Part shown: positions 722 to 15,408 of the stretch, one piece after another | How the letters are laid out: the number at the start of each line of letters is the position of its first letter | Numbering within the stretch: the first letter of the stretch is position 1 | NCBI RefSeq assembly: GCF_001375535.1 | Contig: NZ_LN831197.1 | Coordinates: 4,543,156-4,607,155, forward strand | DNA from: Bacillus niameyensis | GTDB taxonomy: Bacteria > Bacillota > Bacilli > Bacillales > Bacillaceae_C | Direction of reading: 5' to 3' | DNA length: 64,000 nucleotides | Notes under the pieces: model-generated | The model's input: the letters and a program-made list of their open reading frames with translations, nothing else | Told to the model about the DNA's origin: nothing | Database searches by the model: none | Translations under genes and position numbers: made by a program

Positions 722-1516
722 GTGGAATTACCAAAGCAATTACAACCATATGCAGACTCTCTAGCAAATACGAAAAAGCCATGTTTGAACATTAAAGGGA
801 AAATAGCGAATACAACTCCATTACAAAGTAAGTTTGCTGGACAACCGTACTGGTTAAAAACTGATCCATATCCAACATCTAAAGATGGGCAACCGCTTCG
901 TTTGCTTGCACAAATAAACTTTAGTGAGATCGGGGAAACCATTCCTGACTATCCAACAGAGGGTATTTTACAGTTTTTTGTAGCAGATGATGATGTGTAT
1001 GGATTAGATTTTGATAATGGGAAGAATCAAGATACATTCCGAATTGTTTATCACGAAAAGATTGAATTGGATTCTTCAAAATGGTTAACTGAACTTCAAG
1101 TTTTCGATGATGAAAACTATTTCCCAATAGAGAAGGAATGCGCCTTATCGTTTGAACGATCAGATGAAATGATGTCATCAGGAGATTATCGTTTTAATGT
1201 TATTACAGGAATCGATCAGTTATTAGAAAGCGGTACAGACGAGGACTATGATGCTTATGATGAAATTATGGAAGCGTACAATGAGATAGCATGTGGCCAA
1301 GGTTCAAAACTAGGCGGGTATCCATTTTTTACACAGGAAGACCCAAGAGCATACGGCAATTACATAGAATGCGATACTTTATTGTTGCAGATCGATACCG
1401 ATAATGATTTGGACATTATGTGGGGAGATTCCGGCGTAGCGAATTTCTTTATTGCCGCGGAAGATTTAAAGAAACGTGATTTTTCTAAAGTTCTTTATAA
1501 TTGGGATTGTTATTAA
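722..1516 (+). CDS. YwqG-like protein (DUF1963)
   Basis: A 264-residue protein starting at GTG 722, chosen because AAAGGAAG lies about nine bases upstream; an in-frame TTG at 695 has no such site. Typical YwqG features are visible: FAGQPYWLKTDPYPTSKDGQ near the N-terminus, LRLLAQINFSEI, a middle ILQFFVADDDVYGLD, and a C-terminal GGYPFFTQEDPR followed by LLLQIDTDNDLDIMWGDSG. The family has no assigned reaction; members are soluble proteins often found near polymorphic toxin loci. It appears monocistronic here. The family assignment is secure, the role unknown. Confidence 0.85.
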   Translation: MELPKQLQPYADSLANTKKPCLNIKGKIANTTPLQSKFAGQPYWLKTDPYPTSKDGQPLRLLAQINFSEIGETIPDYPTEGILQFFVADDDVYGLDFDNGKNQDTFRIVYHEKIELDSSKWLTELQVFDDENYFPIEKECALSFERSDEMMSSGDYRFNVITGIDQLLESGTDEDYDAYDEIMEAYNEIACGQGSKLGGYPFFTQEDPRAYGNYIECDTLLLQIDTDNDLDIMWGDSGVANFFIAAEDLKKRDFSKVLYNWDCY

Positions 1517-1835
1517 GATGAAAAAGTGAACTAGCAAAAATCAATACATATTTTAAAAGACAAATAAAAATCTCTTTTTAATGATTCAACAAAGGGAAAT
1601 GATCAAAGCAATTATTAAAAGGGAATCAAACTAGGTTAACTAGGGATTTTTTTAAAGTAAGAGAAATTAAAATAAACTGGTACTACGCGAATAAGGCGAG
1701 TTGCCAGTTTTTTTGAATTTTAAAATCGCTAAGTTATTAACTCTCATTCATAGAAATCTAACTGTATTTGGGAAATTGAGGCATTAAATAATGTACGTAA
1801 ACTAGTAGGGAGAAGCTCACAATCGTTATGATTCT
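1517..1835 (+). other. Gene-free stretch, AT-rich
   Basis: No open frame with a ribosome binding site was seen on either strand. The stretch contains the hairpin described separately at 1674-1714 and ends at the promoter of the next operon. Nothing else stands out. Confidence 0.5.
1674..1714 (+). terminator. Rho-independent terminator
   Basis: AAACTGG (1674-1680) pairs with CCAGTTT (1704-1710) and runs directly into TTTT. It is 158 bases after the YwqG-like stop codon and upstream of the next operon promoter, insulating the two. Confidence 0.55.
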
Positions 1836-1864
1836 TTAACAAGTTATTAAACATGATATATAAT
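1836..1864 (+). promoter_or_regulatory. Sigma-A promoter of the protease/Wadjet operon
   Basis: TTAACA (1836-1841) and TATAAT (1859-1864) are separated by 17 bases, close to the vegetative consensus. Transcription would start near 1871, 24 bases before the ATG of the first gene. No equally good promoter followed by a usable leader was seen before jetD. Confidence 0.65.
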
Positions 1865-1894
1865 AGAGAGAAAGGATACGTGGAGGTGGTAACG

Positions 1895-2158
1895 ATGAAA
1901 TGGGAACAGGTTCGTCATCAATATCCAGAACAGTGGGTGCTTGTTGAAGCAATATCAGCTTACTCTGCAAAATCCACTCGCCATTTCAACGAGCTATCCG
2001 TCATTTCAAATTTTACTGAATCGACTGTTGCGTGGAAAGAATATAAAAAACTACATCTAGCTAACCCCTCAAAGGAATACTACATTTTCCATACAGATCA
2101 TGAAACTATTGAAGTAAAGGAGCAGAAATTTATTGGCGTTAGGAGGCGACTTCAATAA
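1895..2158 (+). CDS. Small protein paired with the retropepsin gene
   Basis: An 87-residue acidic-to-neutral protein starting at ATG 1895 with GGAGGTGG eight to ten bases upstream. An in-frame ATG at 1853 lies upstream of the mapped promoter start and is rejected. The sequence contains WEQVRHQYPEQWVLVEAI at the N-terminus and a conserved-looking SKEYYIFHTDHETIEVKE near the end. I recognise it only as the small unnamed partner that commonly precedes a stand-alone retropepsin in Bacillus relatives. Its stop codon overlaps the apparent start of the protease gene, which implies coupled translation. No function can be assigned; a substrate, inhibitor or adaptor of the protease are all possible. 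Confidence 0.7.
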   Translation: MKWEQVRHQYPEQWVLVEAISAYSAKSTRHFNELSVISNFTESTVAWKEYKKLHLANPSKEYYIFHTDHETIEVKEQKFIGVRRRLQ

Positions 2159-2541
2159 AAATAAAAATACAGGATGGGTTGCCAATCGTTTCAGTACTCC
2201 TTACGTTCAAAGGGAGAAAGATTCGACTTGATGACGTACTTTTAGACACCGGGTGCTCAACCACAATTTTTGATACGGATGAAGTCGAAGAAGTTGGACT
2301 TATTATAGATCGAAAAAACGGAAAACCAAGAAGAATGTATGGAGTAGGTGGAGAAAGCGAACTATGCTATGAGCAGATCGTAAAAGAATTACAAATTGAT
2401 CATTTTGCACTAGACTCTTTTCTAATCCAATTAGGTATAACGAAGGAAACCTATGGATTTAATGGCATTCTCGGAGTAGATTTTATGATTAAAACCGGAC
2501 TAATAGTGGATTTCAATGAAAAAAAGGCGTATTGGAAATAA
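2155..2541 (+). CDS. Single-domain retropepsin-like aspartic protease
   Basis: A 128-residue protein with the aspartic protease signature LLDTGCSTT (catalytic Asp31, numbering from the proposed start) and a C-terminal hydrophobic-hydrophobic-Gly element in GILGVDFM. Retropepsins of this size act as homodimers, each chain giving one Asp. The reading frame is open to position 2143, and AGGAGG (2141-2146) lies eight bases before an ATA codon at 2155 that overlaps the upstream stop. Starting there gives IKIKIQDGLPIVSV, which restores the usual first strand; the first conventional start, TTG 2179, has no ribosome binding site and would shorten that strand. The gene is followed after 32 bases by jetD, so it is probably co-transcribed with the Wadjet genes. 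Substrate unknown. Confidence 0.8.
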   Translation: MKIKIQDGLPIVSVLLTFKGRKIRLDDVLLDTGCSTTIFDTDEVEEVGLIIDRKNGKPRRMYGVGGESELCYEQIVKELQIDHFALDSFLIQLGITKETYGFNGILGVDFMIKTGLIVDFNEKKAYWK

Positions 2542-2573
2542 AAAAGAATGATTTTATTATATAGGTGATTCTA

Positions 2574-3782
2574 TTGAACACAAAAGAATTTATAGAGAGA
2601 TATATTTGTAAAGTTGGGGAAACGGTTGATCAAATTAGTCATAATGAGTGGCAAATTCAAAAATGGACGGCAAGAACTTTTAAAACGCTGGGCAATGTTC
2701 TAGCTGCTGAACATTATGACATGTTACCAACTAAAGAATTGATTAAGTTAAAGCTGAAACCAAATTCTCGTAGAAGTTCATTATCCTTACAAAAGAAAAT
2801 AATAGACGAGGCATTACACAAGGGATGGATTATCCAAGAAATCCGTTTTAAGAAAGATGGCAGGACACCCCTGTCTTCGGTATATCGCATGGGTCCTGGT
2901 TTATATGAATATGAAAGACTCAAGGAGGAGGAAGCTAATTCAGAGGATCGGGAGCTTAAACAAATTTTAAAAGCTGAAGTGGTAAAATTAGAAGGCATTC
3001 TTCCAGCTGATTTTCTCAATGAAATTATAGAATTTGCTAATGAAAATGCTGATTCAGAATCATGGGGTAAAGAAAGAGTTCGAAGGTTTTGCCATTTTTT
3101 AATAGGTTATCTTCAGTTAAGAAGAGAAAAATCGAGGATAGAATTTAAAGAAATTGGAGCTACGTATTATAAAAAAGTGGGTGGTTCGAAAGCTTTTGAT
3201 TCTTATCGGGCATTTTTTATTACACGAATGGAAAAGTGGCAAAATGCCCCAGTCAATGAGTTAGGGATTATAAGTATCGGCTCGATTGTATCCGTACTTT
3301 TTACAGGGAATTTAAATGGGCGCTTTTCTTGCTATTCTTTGGGAACCGTCCATGCTACGACTGACATTGCCATCGTAGATGAAATGTTTCAGACAGACGC
3401 CAGGTATTTATGGTTAGTAGAAAATCGGGCTGTCTTAACTAGAATGGCTGCTGAAGTTGATTTTCTGGAAAAAACCCAATCTTTTATAATAGGTGTTGAT
3501 GGTCAGATTCGCGGAGCACATCGAAAAATGATTAAACAGCTGTGTACCAACTTATCCGTTCAAAAAATTATCATATGGGTTGATTACGATAAAGCGGGCG
3601 AAATCATTGCGAGAGATATCGTTCAGCTAGTGAAGGGAATCTCTTATTGCATAGTTGGAAATCAAGGAAATTTATTTTCCTCATACGAAGAGTATGTTAA
3701 ATGGTCAACAAATACTCAGCCAGCAGAACAAGAGATGACGTTAGGAGGTCCAGAAGAATGGAAAAAGTGGATAGAGAAATAA
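2574..3782 (+). CDS. jetD: Wadjet subunit JetD, TOPRIM nuclease
   Basis: A 402-residue protein of the DUF2220/JetD (MksG) type. In Wadjet systems this subunit is the endonuclease that cuts closed circular plasmid DNA after the SMC motor has extruded it. The N-terminal two thirds are an arm/winged-helix region; the C-terminal third is a TOPRIM fold with the conserved acidic residue in LVENRAV (Glu283) and the DxD motif in WVDYDKAGE (Asp337, Asp339). The TTG start at 2574 is preferred because AGGTGA lies five bases upstream; GTG 2565 overlaps that site. It overlaps jetA by 25 bases. Here jetD comes first in the operon, whereas the best known systems have it last. I do not assign a Wadjet subtype. 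Confidence 0.85.
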   Translation: MNTKEFIERYICKVGETVDQISHNEWQIQKWTARTFKTLGNVLAAEHYDMLPTKELIKLKLKPNSRRSSLSLQKKIIDEALHKGWIIQEIRFKKDGRTPLSSVYRMGPGLYEYERLKEEEANSEDRELKQILKAEVVKLEGILPADFLNEIIEFANENADSESWGKERVRRFCHFLIGYLQLRREKSRIEFKEIGATYYKKVGGSKAFDSYRAFFITRMEKWQNAPVNELGIISIGSIVSVLFTGNLNGRFSCYSLGTVHATTDIAIVDEMFQTDARYLWLVENRAVLTRMAAEVDFLEKTQSFIIGVDGQIRGAHRKMIKQLCTNLSVQKIIIWVDYDKAGEIIARDIVQLVKGISYCIVGNQGNLFSSYEEYVKWSTNTQPAEQEMTLGGPEEWKKWIEK

Positions 3783-5155
3783 TTTCCATTTTTAAAAGTG
3801 ATCACAATTTACCGCAAATGGCGAGAGCAATGCGAGATATTATCTCTTTAGCTGGCGTAATGAAAGATCTATCAACAGAATCAGTATTTGATTCACCTTT
3901 AGAAATGTTGCGTTTTTTAAGAATTATAGAATTGATTCATGAGGAAGCATACGGTTTAAGTGATCCAATAGATAATGCAGAGACACTTTATTATCGGTAC
4001 CAGTCCCGCTACAAAGATGGAGAGCCACCAACAAAAGCAAGAGTGGATCAAATTGTGAATGTTTTGGCAAAGAACAATTGGGTCAGTAAACAGACACACC
4101 AGATCAAAATGATGAGTGTTGGGAAACGTATGATGGATGCTTTAACAAGGTTAGCTAATGATTCATTGGCGTACTATTTGGAAGATGAAATTGGACGATC
4201 CTTGTTTCAAGCGAGGCGAGACGCGGAAATTAGTGAGGCATATGATGATAAGGGAATATCAGGTGGAAATAGGATTGCTAGTTTAATTCATAATGTTCAG
4301 GGAGCAATTAATCTGTTAAAGGAACGTGAGCTAGAACTGCTTGCTGACCGTAACGCCTTGCCTCAGCTTCAATTAATTCATACGTTAATGGAGGAACTGG
4401 AGGGAAAGCTTCAAGAAAGAATTAATCAATTTCAAACAATAGAAGACAGTCTTGTTCTCAGCAATTTAATGCAAAAGGGGACAGGGGCGCTTGCTGAAGG
4501 GACAAGCTTATCAATTGGAATGATTAATAAATACCTTCAATTTATGAATGTGCAACAAACTCCTCTTAAAACAAAAATTTCTCCGGAATCAGTTCGAGTT
4601 TTTATTGAGAAAATGTTCAATCCCCCTCCTGAATCGGAAATCCCAAATGCCCATCAACTATTTAGTTTTATGGATCAAGGACAGTATAAAGGGGAAGAAA
4701 GAGATGGTATTTGGATACCGGTTAAGTATGCTGCTCCATTATCCTATTTGGATATTGAAAAGGGAATTGACTTTTTGGAAAACTATGAGCCTGTTGTGGC
4801 CGATATTGAAGAAATAACGAACCCTGAATTTCACGAGGAAAATATTGAGGTAGATTCGTTGACAGAATTAGTAGAGGAAGCGGGCTGGCTTCTCACGAAG
4901 GCAAGTATTGATACAGAAAAAGTCGAGAAATATTTGGAACAGAAAAAAGAAGCGGATATGGAGGAAACGATCGTTGAGACGAGTTCCCCTTTATGGGGCG
5001 ATGCGATTCGCCAGCTCTTAGCTATATCAGCACTTGAAGCAAATAAAAAGATTGAAATTCGACCGAAACAAGAAGTGAAGCAATATGAAAAAGAATGGGA
5101 GTGGATCCAAGATGACGACAGAAAATCCAGCATTCGAAGAAGAGAGCATTCATAA
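3758..5155 (+). CDS. jetA: Wadjet subunit JetA (kleisin/MukF-like)
   Basis: A 465-residue, mostly helical, acidic protein. Position between a TOPRIM nuclease and a small winged-helix gene followed by an SMC ATPase identifies it as the kleisin subunit, which bridges the SMC heads and binds JetB. The N-terminus (residues 1-150) is compatible with a winged-helix region and the middle (about 190-260) with a helical bundle, as in MukF; no enzymatic motif is visible. ATG 3758 is chosen because TAGGAGGT lies nine bases upstream; the frame is open further left but without such a site. It overlaps jetD by 25 and jetB by 44 bases, so the four genes are translationally coupled. The assignment rests more on context than on sequence. 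Confidence 0.75.
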   Translation: MEKVDREIISIFKSDHNLPQMARAMRDIISLAGVMKDLSTESVFDSPLEMLRFLRIIELIHEEAYGLSDPIDNAETLYYRYQSRYKDGEPPTKARVDQIVNVLAKNNWVSKQTHQIKMMSVGKRMMDALTRLANDSLAYYLEDEIGRSLFQARRDAEISEAYDDKGISGGNRIASLIHNVQGAINLLKERELELLADRNALPQLQLIHTLMEELEGKLQERINQFQTIEDSLVLSNLMQKGTGALAEGTSLSIGMINKYLQFMNVQQTPLKTKISPESVRVFIEKMFNPPPESEIPNAHQLFSFMDQGQYKGEERDGIWIPVKYAAPLSYLDIEKGIDFLENYEPVVADIEEITNPEFHEENIEVDSLTELVEEAGWLLTKASIDTEKVEKYLEQKKEADMEETIVETSSPLWGDAIRQLLAISALEANKKIEIRPKQEVKQYEKEWEWIQDDDRKSSIRRREHS

Positions 5156-5801
5156 TCAAACTTTAAATAGCCTTCATACCTTGCAAAGTGTCTTAACGGG
5201 CCGGGAAGAACAGACGTTTATGTCGATATTGTTTTCATCAAGTGCAACGATTCGGGCTAACAATTTTGGTCTTTCGCGTAAGGAGATAGAAAAGCTTTTA
5301 GGCGTCACTCGAAATGACCAATACTTTTTTTCCTTTTTATCACGAGTTAACCAGGCTGTTGGCCGTTATTATAGGCTCATATATGACGAACAACGGGATC
5401 AAGTAGTCGTTATGCTACGTGTACCTGCCCGATCAGCACGCCATACTTTATCGGAGGAATCCCTTGCCGTGTTACTCTATATGTTTTATCAACAGGAAGT
5501 GCTAAAGCATGAATATACACTATTGTCCCAATTACTGGAAGCTTTTGGCCATGAAATGTTAAAAGGGGGACGGCGAATCCAGCTAGCCCTTGATTCACTA
5601 AGAAAAATTGGAGCCATTGAACATGATCAATCATCAGATAGAAAAGATTCCTATTGTTTAACAACTATTGGTGTCCATATGTTTTCAGATTCATTTTTAC
5701 GTAGAGTAGTGGAATTCAGTCATTCCAATCAATTGTCGAAAGAAGACGTTATGAAATTTTTCAATCGTTATAATCTTTATGAGCAGGAGGGAATGGTGTG
5801 A
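5112..5801 (+). CDS. jetB: Wadjet subunit JetB (MukE-like)
   Basis: A 229-residue protein with two winged-helix-like segments, the second ending in LALDSLRKIGAIEHD and YCLTTIGVHMFSD. Size, position and fold type match the MukE/JetB subunit that dimerises and binds the kleisin. ATG 5112 has GGGAGTGG seven bases upstream; the earlier in-frame ATG 5085 has no site. The gene lies inside the 3-prime end of jetA by 44 bases, and its stop codon overlaps the GTG start of jetC. No catalytic residues are expected or seen. Confidence 0.75.
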   Translation: MTTENPAFEEESIHNQTLNSLHTLQSVLTGREEQTFMSILFSSSATIRANNFGLSRKEIEKLLGVTRNDQYFFSFLSRVNQAVGRYYRLIYDEQRDQVVVMLRVPARSARHTLSEESLAVLLYMFYQQEVLKHEYTLLSQLLEAFGHEMLKGGRRIQLALDSLRKIGAIEHDQSSDRKDSYCLTTIGVHMFSDSFLRRVVEFSHSNQLSKEDVMKFFNRYNLYEQEGMV

Positions 5802-8800
5802 TTCCATGGCGTTTACAATTTTCGGGTATTCGAGATTACGGTATAGAGGAAATGAATTTGGAAAATGAAAATGACCACATTATGATTACGGGTCCTAATG
5901 GAGCAGGGAAATCCACTATTTCTTTTTGTATGGGAGCGGTTTTGCGTTCAAGCAAAGTTGATATTGAAGGATTGAAATCGCAAAACCTTCCAGAAGATCA
6001 ACCATGGCATGCTCAAATCCGTTTTCTTTTTAAGAATGAAGGATATTCGCGAATTGATGCCCCTTTATATATTGAATTTCGCTTATATTGTGAACAACTT
6101 CCAAAGCAGCCGATCAAACTCCGCTATGAAATCCATGATGGTGATGCAATCGATCAATTAGACCTTCGGCAAACGTTTCGGTCCGGAGATGTAAATAAAA
6201 ACAATTATTCCGCCTATAAACGAGAACTGCAGTTTAAATACAAAATTCATCCCGACTTGTACTATTTGATTTGGTATCAGCAAGAAGTCAATCAATTTGC
6301 TGTAATGGCGCCAGAAGAGCGTTTCCGGATATTTAGTGAAATGCACGGGATTGATAAGATCCAGAAAGATTGGGAAACAAGCCTAGAGGTTGTGAAGGAA
6401 GCCCAAGATTCATTAGCGGTTGCGACTAATCAACAAAAGGCATATGAATTTAATTTAGGAATTGCTAGAAGTGCAAAGGATCGTTATGAAGCGAATAAGA
6501 GGCGGCTGGATGAAAGTGGTTATCTTTATGCATGGACGACGTATAGGCTGCAAAAGAGGGCTAAGCAGGATCAAGTGGAGATGGAGAAGTATATTGAAGA
6601 ACGTGAAATTGAGTTAGACGAGTTTTTTAATAAGCAAGCTGAAAATGAAGGAAGAATCGTCCAAGAGAAAAATGCGAGAAAAGAGTTAGAAGCTCAACAA
6701 AGTCAAAAAGAGGAAGGTCGGGAGCAACTGCTTGAGCGATTAAGTTCTAGCGAAGCTAAACATTCGGAAGTGGAGGAAGAGGTAGATCTGTTGCAAAATG
6801 AGCTAAGTGAGCTAACGGAAGCCTATAAGAAACTATCGTACTCTGAAAAAGAAACTAAAGAGAGATGGCAGCTAGTCCAAGATCAAGCTCAGCAGTTAAA
6901 AGAAAAAGAAAAGAGTTTGCGTGAAAAGGTTACGGAAATGGACGGTGAAATAGAATCCACACGCCAAAAACAATCCGATCTGAAAGCGAAGATTAACCAG
7001 TGGATTGAAAATAGCCAATCTGCAAATGAATTACTTGTACGTTACACATCGAGTTATCAACTAACTGAAAGACTCATCCTACTTGACGATTCTATTCAAT
7101 CGATGAAAGAACAGCGTGAAGAAAAGGATAAACAACTTCGTACTCTTAAAAATGAGTTAGAAATGTTGGCACGAAATCAGATCGAGTCACCACGTCAGCA
7201 TGAAGCAATTAGTGAGTTGAAGAAACGAGGAATCCAAGCGTACTCCTTTCGCTATTTTATTAGAATGATAGACAATACCAATCTGAAAAAGGAATGCTTA
7301 TTTGATACTATTAAATACACGATTTTCTATGATGCTTCTACCTGTCACCCCTTTAATGATTTATATCATGTATCATTAAAAAAACTCATTCCTGACCGAT
7401 CACTAACGGAGTTGCCCCAATTAGGATTAAGAATGCGTGAAGGTCTCTCAAGTGAGGACCAAAATAAAGCTGCCCGTGTTCTATGGTGGATTGAACAATT
7501 TTTTACGAAAGAGACTCCACACATTGAAAATGGTTGGCTAATCGACCCACAAGGAATAAGGGGTCCGCAGGAACATGATACGTATATTTTGAGTAATAAA
7601 GCTCTGGAAGATCGAAAACGGAAACTTGAGCAGCAGATTCATTTATTACAAGAAGAAATTGCATTTTTGGATGAAAAGTGGAAAAAGGACAATGAAACAT
7701 ATCGTATTTGGAACGCCGACGTTCAGAAGGTGAGAGAAGCAGAGGCGTTTTTGTCCACAAAAGCAGAGCAAGATTACAGAATCGAGCAATTGGAACAATT
7801 AAAGATATTGTATAGCCAATTACAAGAAGATAAAACTGAACTCGAGAAAAAAGTACAAGATGCATGGAAAATAAATCATCGGTTGTCTGGCGAGATCAAG
7901 AAACTAGAAGCGGATTTAATAGTATATGAGAAATTCAGTCAGCAATCAGCGAAAATTGAGAGACTTCAAAAACTGGAACAGTCACTAAAAGAGATAAAGA
8001 ATGAAATAAAAGATGTCCGTAGTTCTATAGCAAAATTGGATAATGGGCTAGATGACTTGCAACAAAAACTTAGGGTAAATCAACGGAATATTGATGATTT
8101 AGAGGATGTCCGTATCCAAAACCAACGTTCCATTACACAAACTACCAATCAAAAGCGGGAAAAAGAACAAGAACGAATTACCATGAATAATGTGGCTGCA
8201 GGATATAAAAATGAATTAAACGAACTTCGCCAACTTATTCCCGATCTCGTTGAGGAGGCCATCGTGGATAAGCAATTTGAAGAGTCAAAGTTTGAACTTC
8301 AACATAGACAAAACCAAGCAAAAGTTGAATTTCATACTGCAAGGGATGAAAAAGATATAGATCCAAATGCAGTGGAAAATTTTTATACGATGGAAAAAGA
8401 AGTTCTTCGTAAAAAGGACGAATTGCATGCGGCCAAAAATCTTTTAGAGGAAAACGAAGAACGTGCAAATCAGAATGAAAAGCACTTAGAAACTGCTATT
8501 ACGATGCAGGTTCAAAGAATTCATCTCCTCTTTGAACAGTATATGGGTCTATTCCAGTTTGAGGGCCAGATTAAATATGAGAAACTTTTGGACAAAAAAG
8601 GTCGTCCTGTATTTAAATTGTTTATCTACGTCCGTAAAGAAGGACATCGGGGAAAATTTGAGGATGTAAGTTTGAAAGCAAGGGGAGGTCGTGTCGGGAA
8701 AGGTGTATCTGGAGGAGAAGAGTCTTTAAGCTCGTTATTATTTGCACTTTCTTTACTGCAAAATTTAGAAAATCGTGCTAGTTTTATCGTAATGGATGAA

Positions 8801-8998
8801 TTTGATAGTGCCTTGGATGAAAACCGTAAAGCCAAAGTCTTCCAGCTATATGCGAAAGAACTTCAACGAAAATTAATTATATTATCTCCAAAGGGACATG
8901 AGGATGAGTACTATTATCGATTTTCTAAAGCTTTTATTGTCTCTCATGATCCCAAGGAGCTGAAAAGTAAAGTAAAGGGGATCATGCTTAGCCATTAA
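5798..8998 (+). CDS. jetC: Wadjet subunit JetC, SMC-type ATPase
   Basis: A 1066-residue SMC/MukB-like motor. The Walker A loop is TGPNGAGKST (residues 31-40). Two long coiled-coil arms rich in Glu, Lys and Gln span about 190-470 and 610-930, separated by a globular hinge region around 480-600. The ABC signature VSGGEES is at 970-976 and Walker B FIVMDEFDSALDE at 996-1008. In Wadjet this ATPase extrudes plasmid DNA until JetD cleaves it. GTG 5798 overlaps the jetB stop (GTGA) and has AGGAGGG five bases upstream. It is the last gene; a hairpin follows. All motifs look intact, so the system should be functional. Confidence 0.92.
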   Translation: MIPWRLQFSGIRDYGIEEMNLENENDHIMITGPNGAGKSTISFCMGAVLRSSKVDIEGLKSQNLPEDQPWHAQIRFLFKNEGYSRIDAPLYIEFRLYCEQLPKQPIKLRYEIHDGDAIDQLDLRQTFRSGDVNKNNYSAYKRELQFKYKIHPDLYYLIWYQQEVNQFAVMAPEERFRIFSEMHGIDKIQKDWETSLEVVKEAQDSLAVATNQQKAYEFNLGIARSAKDRYEANKRRLDESGYLYAWTTYRLQKRAKQDQVEMEKYIEEREIELDEFFNKQAENEGRIVQEKNARKELEAQQSQKEEGREQLLERLSSSEAKHSEVEEEVDLLQNELSELTEAYKKLSYSEKETKERWQLVQDQAQQLKEKEKSLREKVTEMDGEIESTRQKQSDLKAKINQWIENSQSANELLVRYTSSYQLTERLILLDDSIQSMKEQREEKDKQLRTLKNELEMLARNQIESPRQHEAISELKKRGIQAYSFRYFIRMIDNTNLKKECLFDTIKYTIFYDASTCHPFNDLYHVSLKKLIPDRSLTELPQLGLRMREGLSSEDQNKAARVLWWIEQFFTKETPHIENGWLIDPQGIRGPQEHDTYILSNKALEDRKRKLEQQIHLLQEEIAFLDEKWKKDNETYRIWNADVQKVREAEAFLSTKAEQDYRIEQLEQLKILYSQLQEDKTELEKKVQDAWKINHRLSGEIKKLEADLIVYEKFSQQSAKIERLQKLEQSLKEIKNEIKDVRSSIAKLDNGLDDLQQKLRVNQRNIDDLEDVRIQNQRSITQTTNQKREKEQERITMNNVAAGYKNELNELRQLIPDLVEEAIVDKQFEESKFELQHRQNQAKVEFHTARDEKDIDPNAVENFYTMEKEVLRKKDELHAAKNLLEENEERANQNEKHLETAITMQVQRIHLLFEQYMGLFQFEGQIKYEKLLDKKGRPVFKLFIYVRKEGHRGKFEDVSLKARGGRVGKGVSGGEESLSSLLFALSLLQNLENRASFIVMDEFDSALDENRKAKVFQLYAKELQRKLIILSPKGHEDEYYYRFSKAFIVSHDPKELKSKVKGIMLSH

Positions 8999-9057
8999 TA
9001 AGCCGGGCAGCAGGTGCTTTAAGTAGATAAAGAGGGGACTCTGGCTCAGTTGTGATA

Positions 9058-9094
9058 AATAACGTGAAATTCGTTAAATGGTCACGTTATTTTG
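9058..9094 (+). terminator. Terminator after jetC
   Basis: AATAACGTGA (9058-9067) pairs exactly with TCACGTTATT (9082-9091) with a 14-base loop, followed by TT. It lies 60 bases after the jetC stop. Confidence 0.6.
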
Positions 9095-9184
9095 CGTGCA
9101 CAGATCTGTATAATGGCGTTATTTCTAAGTTCATTAGAATATGTACTATAATATTGTGTTCTTCAAAACAAATCCAACCAAAAG

Positions 9185-9850
9185 TCAAACTAATAGGGAT
9201 CTTATTTTATAAAATAACCATGCTTTCATGACGGATTCATCAGAACGATGCGTTGCCACTTTATTTAGAAAGTAAAAGTCATCGGGCTCCACTTCGATTT
9301 TTGCGATGGGCTCTATGGCTTCGTCACTAATCCACTCATCGAATTGAATCGTTCCTTGACTTATATGACGAAAGGAGTCTTCTTGTAAAAGATAAATCAT
9401 CCCATTAGTCCAAGGCTCATTTTGGAGTGTTGGTTTTGTTAAGGAGTAAAAGTGAAACGGCTTTTTGCCATTAGCGGAAACCGAACCGTTTCTCATATTT
9501 CCTACTATTTTTTCTTTATTAAAAATCGCGTAGAAAATAGGCCAAATCGGATCTTTTGTTGCAAAAACAGCTGTAGTCCATTTTCCGTTATATAAGGTTT
9601 GTTTGCGCGGTTCAAACGAATCAATATACTTATTATTCGATCCATGCAACACAAAGGATTTTTGTTTCGTCGCATAATAAAGGAACTTATATTTAGGAAT
9701 CGCAAGCTTGTAGTCTATAGTCTTATCAGGTCTTTTTAATGAGTTTTCCAGTAGATTGTTGAATAAGTTCTCTTCCTTTTTACTAATTGTCATTTTGGGC
9801 AGAGGATAGAACAGTATGTGTAAAAGAAGGTTTGTGAATATAGATTTCAA
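9185..9850 (-). CDS. Unrecognised protein, possibly ADP-ribosyltransferase-like
   Basis: A 221-residue protein starting at TTG 9850, where AAGAGGTG lies six bases upstream; a GTG at 9859 overlaps that site. The first 20 residues are hydrophobic (FTNLLLHILFYPLP), perhaps a short anchor. A central run reads FLYYATKQKSFVLHGSN, then FEPRKQTLYNGK, then TAVFATKDPIWPIFYAIFN. This succession, HGS followed by a TAVFATKDP-type strand and helix, resembles the core of ART-like folds, but the catalytic triad cannot be shown by eye. It is transcribed towards jetC and away from ywbE. Family not recognised; function unknown. Confidence 0.6.
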   Translation of the reverse strand: MKSIFTNLLLHILFYPLPKMTISKKEENLFNNLLENSLKRPDKTIDYKLAIPKYKFLYYATKQKSFVLHGSNNKYIDSFEPRKQTLYNGKWTTAVFATKDPIWPIFYAIFNKEKIVGNMRNGSVSANGKKPFHFYSLTKPTLQNEPWTNGMIYLLQEDSFRHISQGTIQFDEWISDEAIEPIAKIEVEPDDFYFLNKVATHRSDESVMKAWLFYKIRSLLV

Positions 9851-11757: not shown

Positions 11758-11935
11758 TCTTCTTGTTTACCTTTCCTCTGTCCCTATTCAACCATTAGTT
11801 GAATAGCTAAATTCTACTAACTGTTGATAGGTTCGTGGTAGGGGATATGCTAACATAACAACCATGAAGGGCTGATGGGTAATGAACTTCCAGACTTATC
11901 CTTCATGAAAAAAATTGGGCACAGGGGGATTGTTT

Positions 11936-13099
11936 ATGCTAGATTCACGTAAGGTTGGTTCTTATATATCTAAACTTCGCAAGGAACAGGATAAGACTCA
12001 AGTAGAGTTGGCAGAAGATTTGAATGTAAGTCATCAGGCTGTATCAAAATGGGAGCGTGGGGAATCACTTCCTGATATTGCGATGTTTCCAAAAATTGCG
12101 CAGTTATTTAGTAAAACGATTGATGAGATATTAAACGGCGGGGAAAACAGTGTACAGCCTAAATTTACACATGCTGGCAGAATCGTTGAGGAAATTTCCA
12201 ATCAAAACACTGAACAGGTCGCGGAAATGATTAATATCGGGGAAGTGAATGTTGAGGAACTAGTGGAGGTTGCTCCTTTAATTAAAGCAAGCACTTTAAG
12301 CAAGGTTTCTGAAAGCATCGACAAGAGTATCTTTGACACTGATCTTATTGAGAAACTTGCTCCATTTCTCGGGACAGAAACATTGGATTCACTCGTCCTT
12401 CAAGTGGAGGAAGGCAATCTGCAATGGGAGAGGGTTACGAAGCTAGTTCCATTCCTTAGCAAAAACGCGCTAGAGCATTTGGTTGATAAAACAATTGAAG
12501 GTTCGATTGATTCACATGAACTTGTAAGAATTGCCCCTTTTCTAGGTCGTGCTCAAGTGGATAAGTTAGTTCGCCAAGTGGAAGAGGGAAACATGAGTTG
12601 GGACGTCGTCCAATCGCTGGCTCCGTTTATAGGTAGTGCGACTATGAATGACCTCGTTAATCAAGTTGTAGAAGGCAAACTTGACGGTAATCGCATCGTG
12701 AGCCTAGCTCCTTTTTTAAGTCGCGAGCAGGTGGATCGATTAGTTTTTCAAGTCGAGAACATAAGCTGGGACATCGTCCAATCGCTAGCCCCTTTTATAG
12801 GTAGAGCAACGATGGATGACCTCGTTAATCAAGTTGTAGAAGGCAAACTTGACGGTGATCGCATCGTTAGTCTAGCTCCTTTTTTAGGTCGTGAGCAGGT
12901 GGATCGATTAGTTCTGCAAGTGGGGAACATAAGCTGGGACATCGTCCAATCGCTAGCTCCTTTTATAGGTAGAGCAACGATGGATGACCTCGTTAATCAA
13001 GTAGTGGAAGGGAAACTTGATAGTGATCGCATCATGAGTCTAGCTCCCTTTTTAGGTCGTGATCAGTTAGAGAGGCTAGTTTACCAAGTGAAAAAGTAG
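11936..13099 (+). CDS. XRE-type HTH protein with tandem helical repeats
   Basis: A 387-residue protein. Residues 5-60 are a classical XRE/Cro helix-turn-helix (ISKLRKEQDKTQVELAEDLN, SHQAVSKWERGESLPD). From about residue 95 onward the protein is built of half-repeats of about 28 residues of the form LAPFLGRxxVDRLVxQV and LAPFIGRATMDDLVNQVVEG, arranged as alternating pairs. The last three pairs are 56 residues each and nearly identical in DNA as well as protein; earlier pairs are 58 residues and diverged. ATG 11936 is chosen because GGGGGAT lies six bases upstream; an in-frame start at 11915 has none. The repeats should form a solenoid that could bind a protein or peptide signal. Target genes unknown. 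Confidence 0.85.
   Translation: MLDSRKVGSYISKLRKEQDKTQVELAEDLNVSHQAVSKWERGESLPDIAMFPKIAQLFSKTIDEILNGGENSVQPKFTHAGRIVEEISNQNTEQVAEMINIGEVNVEELVEVAPLIKASTLSKVSESIDKSIFDTDLIEKLAPFLGTETLDSLVLQVEEGNLQWERVTKLVPFLSKNALEHLVDKTIEGSIDSHELVRIAPFLGRAQVDKLVRQVEEGNMSWDVVQSLAPFIGSATMNDLVNQVVEGKLDGNRIVSLAPFLSREQVDRLVFQVENISWDIVQSLAPFIGRATMDDLVNQVVEGKLDGDRIVSLAPFLGREQVDRLVLQVGNISWDIVQSLAPFIGRATMDDLVNQVVEGKLDSDRIMSLAPFLGRDQLERLVYQVKK
12593..13096 (+). repeat. Three near-identical 168-bp in-gene repeats
   Basis: The phrase ATAAGCTGGGACATCGTCC recurs at 12761 and 12929, with a diverged copy (ATGAGTTGGGACGTCGTCC) at 12593, giving an exact period of 168 bases or 56 codons. Within a unit the DNA is almost identical between the last copies, including third codon positions, which points to recent duplication or gene conversion. 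Confidence 0.9.
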
Positions 13100-15159: not shown

Positions 15160-15408
15160 AAAAAAACGCACCCGAGTAAGGGTGCGTTAAATACTTGACG
15201 AATATATTGTAACTTGCATTAATTAAAAATCTTAGATAAATTGCCGCGGTTTTATTCTTCATTAAACCTAAACGACGTAAGCCCTACCTCTCATACATCC
15301 TTACGGCTCCGAAGCCGATCCAGTGTGAATAAGTCTTTCTAATAACATAGTAAGAACGCCAAAAAATATTTCATCTATTCAAAGTTTTTCAAGTTCATTC
15401 GATAAGTA
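15160..15408 (-). ncRNA. Candidate structured non-coding RNA
   Basis: On the minus strand a TTGACA (15444-15439) with a TAAATT (15421-15416) 17 bases downstream is followed by about 250 bases without a credible gene, ending in a strong terminator (GGGTGCGTT arms plus eight U). Inside are a UUCG-type hairpin CGGCTTCGGAGCCG (15317-15304), a longer stem GTAAG/CTTAC (15304-15300 with 15281-15277), and GGTTT/AAACC arms (15268-15248). The GC-rich core contrasts with very AT-rich surroundings. I could not match it to a riboswitch or named RNA family. A tiny open frame of 11 codons (MKYFLAFLLCY) occurs near the 5-prime end without a ribosome binding site. Confidence 0.45.
15161..15188 (-). terminator. 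Strong minus-strand terminator
   Basis: AACGCACCC (15165-15173) and GGGTGCGTT (15180-15188) form a perfect 9-bp stem with a six-base loop. The A-run at 15159-15166 gives a U-run on a minus-strand transcript. No protein gene on that strand leads into it, which is the main evidence for the upstream RNA gene. Confidence 0.85.

Follow-up and report, generated by a model that had tools for sequence, protein, structure and literature searches.

Organization of the locus

A 64,000-nucleotide stretch of the Bacillus niameyensis genome (NCBI RefSeq assembly GCF_001375535.1, contig NZ_LN831197.1, positions 4,543,156 to 4,607,155; the whole stretch is called the window below) contains a run of six genes, in which two small overlapping genes, here M08A and M08B, are followed by the complete set jetDABC of a type III Wadjet system. 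All four Jet proteins match the type III models of PADLOC (JetD3 3.9e-128, JetA3 1.5e-225, JetB3 9.1e-111, JetC3 E=0), and the order D-A-B-C is that of the other complete loci mapped. According to PMC10586767, Wadjet cleaves circular plasmids. M08B encodes a predicted single-domain aspartic protease. The original prediction was that the two small genes are co-transcribed with jetDABC and that the protease might be an accessory of plasmid defence. The order of the genes, their strands, the overlap of M08A and M08B and the gap of 32 bases (2542-2573) ahead of the TTG start of jetD are all as it described.

The first gene of the run had been considered a small unknown gene. It is, however, already present in PADLOC-DB. 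The pair corresponds to the defence candidate PDC-M08A/B (models PDLC04400; PDLC04401-04405), and both proteins match the models almost end to end: M08A at 2e-36 over positions 1-85 of 86, M08B at 1.6e-47 over positions 2-122 of 127. Thus the pair has an existing entry as a phage defence candidate (PDC), with candidate status only. PDCs are described as unpublished candidates of Payne et al. (PMC11811056) that derive from a guilt-by-embedding approach, and most of those in the core set await tests (PMC12988326). A literature search found no paper naming PDC-M08 and no test or mechanism, just general remarks on such candidates. It also found no paper mentioning both "Wadjet" and "aspartic protease", and none mentioning both "toxin-antitoxin" and "retropepsin".

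As predicted, a consensus promoter precedes the pair: the top promoter-like match within 1000-9500 is the site immediately upstream of M08A (Table 1). The scan as a whole gave fewer matches than shuffled sequences (16 against 25.2), so the score of this site is by itself weak proof. The site is backed by its -10 element, TGATATA..T, which is kept in the same position upstream of the pair in four relatives (L099, L100, L116, L118). Between M08B and jetD the scan found no terminator-like site, and the RNA folds of 2500-2600 and 2535-2580 are ordinary (z -0.27 and -1.46). An Rfam search gave no match in the M08-Wadjet region. The promoter-like sites closest to jetD (2462-2489 and 2532-2560/2533-2560) reach just 9 of 12 positions, and from the latter transcription would begin at or inside the jetD ribosome-binding site. 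These observations agree with the claims that no terminator precedes jetD and that jetD has no usable promoter of its own.

Table 1. Features of the six-gene run (window positions) and placement of M08 at five other type III Wadjet loci
Feature or locus	Position	Strand	Remarks
Promoter of the M08 pair	1836..1864	+	TTAACA-17-TATAAT, 11/12; sole good candidate promoter for the six-gene run
M08A (PDC-M08A)	1895..2158	+	87 residues; intact; PADLOC model match
M08B (PDC-M08B)	2155..2541	+	predicted single-domain retropepsin; 128 codons counted from ATA 2155
Junction M08/Wadjet	2542..2562	+	between end of M08-pair homology (2540) and start of Wadjet homology (2563)
jetD	2574..3782	+	type III; TTG start; Toprim nuclease
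jetA	3701..5155	+	type III, kleisin
jetB	5085..5801	+	type III, KITE; start position provisional
jetC	5798..8998	+	type III, SMC
L187	M08 ~0.13 kb after jetC		M08A intact, M08B broken
L191	M08 ~4.2 kb after jetC		M08A intact
L197	M08 ~0.26 kb before jetD	divergent	M08A intact, M08B broken
L223	M08 ~0.3 kb before jetD	same strand	M08A intact, M08B broken
L228	M08 ~0.3 kb before jetD	same strand	M08A intact

Junction of the M08 pair and jetD

Lederbergia galactosidilytica carries the same Wadjet system (81% DNA identity over 2563-8984) with the same TTG start of jetD, and its upstream DNA is unrelated to that of the window. The homology starts abruptly at 2563, that is, at the jetD ribosome-binding site. 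No M08 match was found in searches of the L. galactosidilytica genome. On the other side, the nearest M08 pairs show DNA homology from the -10 region to 2540, at or before the stop codon of M08B. Thus the join lies inside 2541-2562. The four nearest M08 relatives come from other families; identity is 82-85% for M08A and, in the three aligned, 67-73% for M08B. They have their own promoter regions, and no Jet gene was found in their fetched flanks.

Upstream sequence is available for 67 other type III loci; in none of them does a same-strand open reading frame (ORF) of at least 80 residues end within 100 bp before jetD, the jetD starts being extrapolated from alignments and the ORFs found with a simple gene caller. 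In this respect the window Wadjet, with jetD 32 bases behind the protease gene, differs from all of them, and the direct fusion of M08 with jetD was seen in the window genome only. Thus jetD normally has its own leader, which has been lost here. The loss leads to the reading that the M08 pair and jetDABC are likely to share one transcript.

The loci L099, L100, L116 and L118 contain a 42-nt element 20-60 nt past M08B, with a core like TCACGGTGA. Searches of the 64-kb window and of the other loci of the series L071-L170 did not reveal it.

Altered start codon of M08B

Where the relatives start M08B, the window has ATA (2155-2157), still 8 bases past AGGAGG. ATG is the start at each of the 27 survey loci whose genes overlap by the same four bases, among them the four nearest relatives. 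The M08B frame of the window is open from 2143, and the first ATG, GTG or TTG in it is TTG 2179. This start would yield 120 residues and would drop residues 1-8, removing the strand at positions 4-6, the first strand of the model. Given the ATA codon, synthesis of M08B is probably low, or yields a protein shortened by 8 residues. Apart from this codon, the coding sequence is under constraint: compared with three relatives, the proportion of nonsynonymous differences (pN) is 0.14-0.18 and that of synonymous differences (pS) 0.76-0.81. Thus the ATA change is recent or tolerated. The possibility of a free-running pseudogene was considered and rejected, as no signs of it were found. One of the five copies near Wadjet genes in other genomes (L223) has ATA at the M08B start too, plus a frameshift; in L228, a close relative of it, the codon is ATG.

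Predicted structures of M08B and M08A

By its sequence profile and structural model, M08B is a retropepsin. The AlphaFold model (predicted local distance difference test, pLDDT, 94.4) is a single-domain beta fold with the DTG motif, and D31-T32-G33, G63, G65, G107 and D109 are invariant in all 47 aligned relatives. The best Foldseek matches in PDB are HIV-1 protease (3.6e-5) and Ddi1, with Rickettsia APRc lower down (2.0e-4), and the sequence profile matches the RVP domain of Ddi1 at 3.4e-8. The one-domain aspartic protease fold with DTG is common to all these proteins, whereas identity in the structure matches is just ~11-22%. Unlike them, M08B is mostly paired with M08A (63 of the 72 fetched places where M08B is intact).

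The model of M08A (pLDDT 89.6, with a weak C-terminus) shows a small protein of the form alpha-beta-beta-alpha-beta. P11, H66 and T67 are invariant across 51 aligned sequences; W3 is invariant too, in an alignment whose row picking favoured starts with W at position 3. A fold search with M08A gave no PDB match better than E 0.3. A sequence search for solved relatives gave none that was convincing, the best match (E 0.027) being a designed protein.

Distribution and loss of the M08 genes

In an order-level survey of 397 genomes (E 1e-3 or better), M08B was found in 83 genomes, M08A in 76 and JetD3 in 18. All three counts include weak and partial matches, which for M08B and JetD3 make up some of the 83 and 18, and M08B was searched with one of the five PADLOC models. 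Together with the absence of Wadjet next to the nearest pairs, this bears out the claim that the pair also occurs on its own in related bacteria. Judged from sequence comparison, M08 is a self-contained unit moving horizontally between Bacillales chromosomes. Tblastn searches with the window proteins gave no matches to either in 50,697 phage records; in 72,556 plasmid records there were no matches to M08B and two to M08A. Among phage protein families (PHROG) there are distant matches, to phrog_21241 "protease" at 1.5e-7 and to phrog_21859 at 6.1e-5. Thus there is no sign of travel on known plasmids or phages, in collections whose share of Bacillales was not checked.

The window genome itself contains a solo intact M08A (C6:2748390, L256:9391-9645) and fragments of at least three further M08 copies (L086, L087, L269). 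Positions 1-2073 of the window are duplicated perfectly (2,073 bases) immediately to its left (L257:8083-10155), and one N terminates the duplicate. The arrangement resembles a contig overlap that was left unresolved, the left contig stopping inside M08A.

Loss was counted at the M08 places fetched in the order survey and in five more genomes of the genus. The locus repeating the window pair (L257) was removed, and some weak M08 fragments were not fetched. Both genes are intact, overlapping or adjoining, at 63 distinct loci, so that two small genes are kept as a unit. An intact M08A without an intact M08B was found at 42 places (M08B broken at 23 and absent at 19, one of the latter at a contig edge), against 9 places with the reverse (M08A broken at three and absent at six). 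Both genes are broken at six places, and fragments only were seen for M08A at 8 and for M08B at 10. Under a crude null in which loss depends on gene length only, P~2e-4 for 42 against 8, with the contig-edge case omitted, and P~6e-8 for 42 against 2. The biased loss of M08B would be expected from a harmful protease with a protective partner. The mean pN/pS of M08A is 0.17 in five solo genes and 0.23 in seven paired ones. Seven of the 63 intact pairs, the window pair included, are followed within 60 bp by a same-strand ORF of at least 60 residues.

A natural fusion of M08A and M08B was suspected at L132 and rejected: the long open frame there is a solo M08B preceded by unrelated sequence.

Co-residence with type III Wadjet

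M08 is present in five of 79 other type III loci, in four arrangements, and in four of the five it lies within ~0.3 kb of jet genes (Table 1). Fourteen of the 79 loci are shorter than 15 kb. Two loci were left out of the 79, namely G388 (broken jetD, no JetA, JetB or JetC in the fetched stretch, M08 pieces ~10 kb downstream) and G013 (a jetD remnant and no M08). If M08 were spread at random in these genomes, 0.34 cases would be expected in the Wadjet loci; under a crude Poisson null, the five cases seen have P~3e-5, and four independent cases P~4e-4. The expectation is based on 74 M08A places, counted by hand, in 38 of 78 genomes (the copy-number count covers 78 of the 79), with each Wadjet locus taken as 21.4 kb. 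On a JetA tree of 78 loci and the window, made by a quick method, the six co-residence cases including the window require five changes. In a control with hsdR, which was found in 45 of 74 M08-bearing genomes, only one had M08 within 10 kb (G030, ~1.4 kb, by eye), the expectation being ~0.6 by a hand estimate.

Thus M08 is more frequent near type III jet genes than elsewhere (5 of 79 loci against ~0.34 expected), and across the wider family of loci the association goes beyond adjacency by chance. Since M08 lies near jet genes in varying places and orientations, the association is loose and recurrent, and no fixed operon is formed. A conserved Wadjet accessory would look different: M08 is found at five of 79 loci, with varied place and strand, and directly before jetD at none of 67. 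Rather than one complex, this co-residence suggests that the same cells benefit from both M08 and Wadjet, or that both settle at the same sites.

One type III Wadjet of the survey (L225), from a record of Candidatus Paracaedibacteraceae, is placed by the JetA tree among Oceanobacillus and Paraliobacillus. The contig is probably mis-binned.

Other features of the window

An Rfam match to the small RNA BsrC (79.9 bits) lies at 15262-15348. The gene at 11915-13099 resembles an XRE-type regulator, named by eye from its translation, and contains many repeat units of the type SLAPFLGREQVDRLV.

Interpretation

Type II toxin-antitoxin systems consist of two small overlapping genes with the restrainer first, occur in several copies per genome and lose the harmful partner first. 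M08 resembles them in all these respects: the genes are small and overlapping, the presumed restrainer is first, there are multiple copies, and the presumed harmful partner is lost first. It differs in that the presumed toxin is a protease and in that M08A has no recognised DNA-binding fold. We know of no established toxin-antitoxin class with an effector of the retroviral protease type. On balance, we favour with some reserve the reading that an autonomous toxin-antitoxin-like PDC-M08 module supplies the jetD promoter here, and that it is not a Wadjet subunit. M08A, made first, would most likely restrain the retropepsin M08B, which is presumably a homodimer and whose activity would harm the cell; the unit would behave as a pair of the toxin-antitoxin or abortive-infection kind. 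One module of this sort was joined exactly at the jetD ribosome-binding site in this Lederbergia-group genome, replacing the usual type III jetD leader, so that its promoter would now be the sole evident one for jetDABC.

Several points weigh against this interpretation. The restraint by M08A and the harm by M08B are deduced from sequence patterns, and the protease activity is predicted. Co-transcription is likely from the anatomy of one genome. As M08A has no recognised DNA-binding fold, classic autoregulation is unsupported. An intact M08B accompanies a broken M08A at L098 and L158, and at L148, a locus cut by a contig edge; the genome of L098 also has an intact pair (L114) that is 98% identical (628 of 641 bases). 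Of the six places where M08A is absent, L167 in our own reading also lacks an M08B start, so that five solo M08B genes remain. Thus there are at least five loci with a solo intact M08B and no adjacent M08A (L132, L134, L135, L142, L160), M08A is not always needed, and a strict toxin-antitoxin rule does not apply. Finally, M08 neighbours elsewhere show, among the matches listed, no visible excess of defence genes over genes at least 6.5 kb away (94 near and 85 far proteins from 47 loci). Among the matches listed, the near set contains two reverse transcriptases and two Fic proteins, and the far set contains two restriction genes, one of type IV and one of type I. As these lists count families, the best 25 of 92 and the best 25 of 64 PADLOC families respectively, the neighbour test is weak.

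One possibility, which we take seriously though we think it rather improbable, is that an ordinary mobile unit landed before jetD by chance, the joint transcript being purposeless and the protease decaying. The direct fusion was observed once, the window M08B has an ATA start, the same genome holds further M08 remnants, and the commonest Pfam families among immediate M08 neighbours (best 25 of 123) are mainly enzymes without a link to defence. However, co-residence is ~15-fold over the within-genome expectation, and four independent cases exist outside the window; no comparable excess is seen for hsdR, and the M08B coding sequence is still constrained. A further extension, in which M08 would be a toxin-antitoxin-like immune module with a retroviral-protease-like effector, repeatedly recruited by type III Wadjet as a second line and here placed on one transcript, seems unlikely to us. 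On that speculative scheme the protease would be released once plasmid cutting fails.

A functional Wadjet accessory, with the protease cutting a Jet or plasmid protein or killing the cell upon Wadjet failure, is distinctly unlikely. The recurrent proximity to jet genes and the operon-like fusion in the window are in its favour, whereas no M08 was found in the fetched flanks, some of them short, of 74 of the 79 type III loci. Moreover, the position and strand of M08 vary, the start of the window protease is altered, and the five co-resident loci all have an intact M08A, but three of them have a broken M08B. The accessory role raised by the original prediction is not supported in that form: the protease is no conserved accessory of Wadjet, as the direct fusion is seen at none of the 67 other loci and no M08 match was found in L. 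galactosidilytica. For its suggestion of a regulator the shared promoter is the single point in favour. The suggestion of a cell-death arm is compatible with the loss pattern. It is very improbable that M08A is the useful part, for instance an anti-protease or a sensor, and M08B a dispensable or harmful partner. The excess of places with M08A only and the conservation of solo M08A agree with such a role; the catalytic triad of M08B, invariant in 47 sequences, and the lineages in which M08B stands alone do not. This explanation overlaps with the antitoxin one, and sequence cannot separate the two.

The claim thus shifts from a protease as an accessory of Wadjet to an independent module that holds the promoter of jetD in one strain. 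If the toxin-antitoxin reading of M08 is true, M08B would be harmful when M08A is absent, as the survey predicts, and a module widespread in bacteria would have a protease of the retroviral type as its effector. That co-residence with one type of Wadjet recurs is a reason to ask whether plasmid defence and M08 act in layers. What PDC-M08 itself is likely to be is the result of greatest interest.

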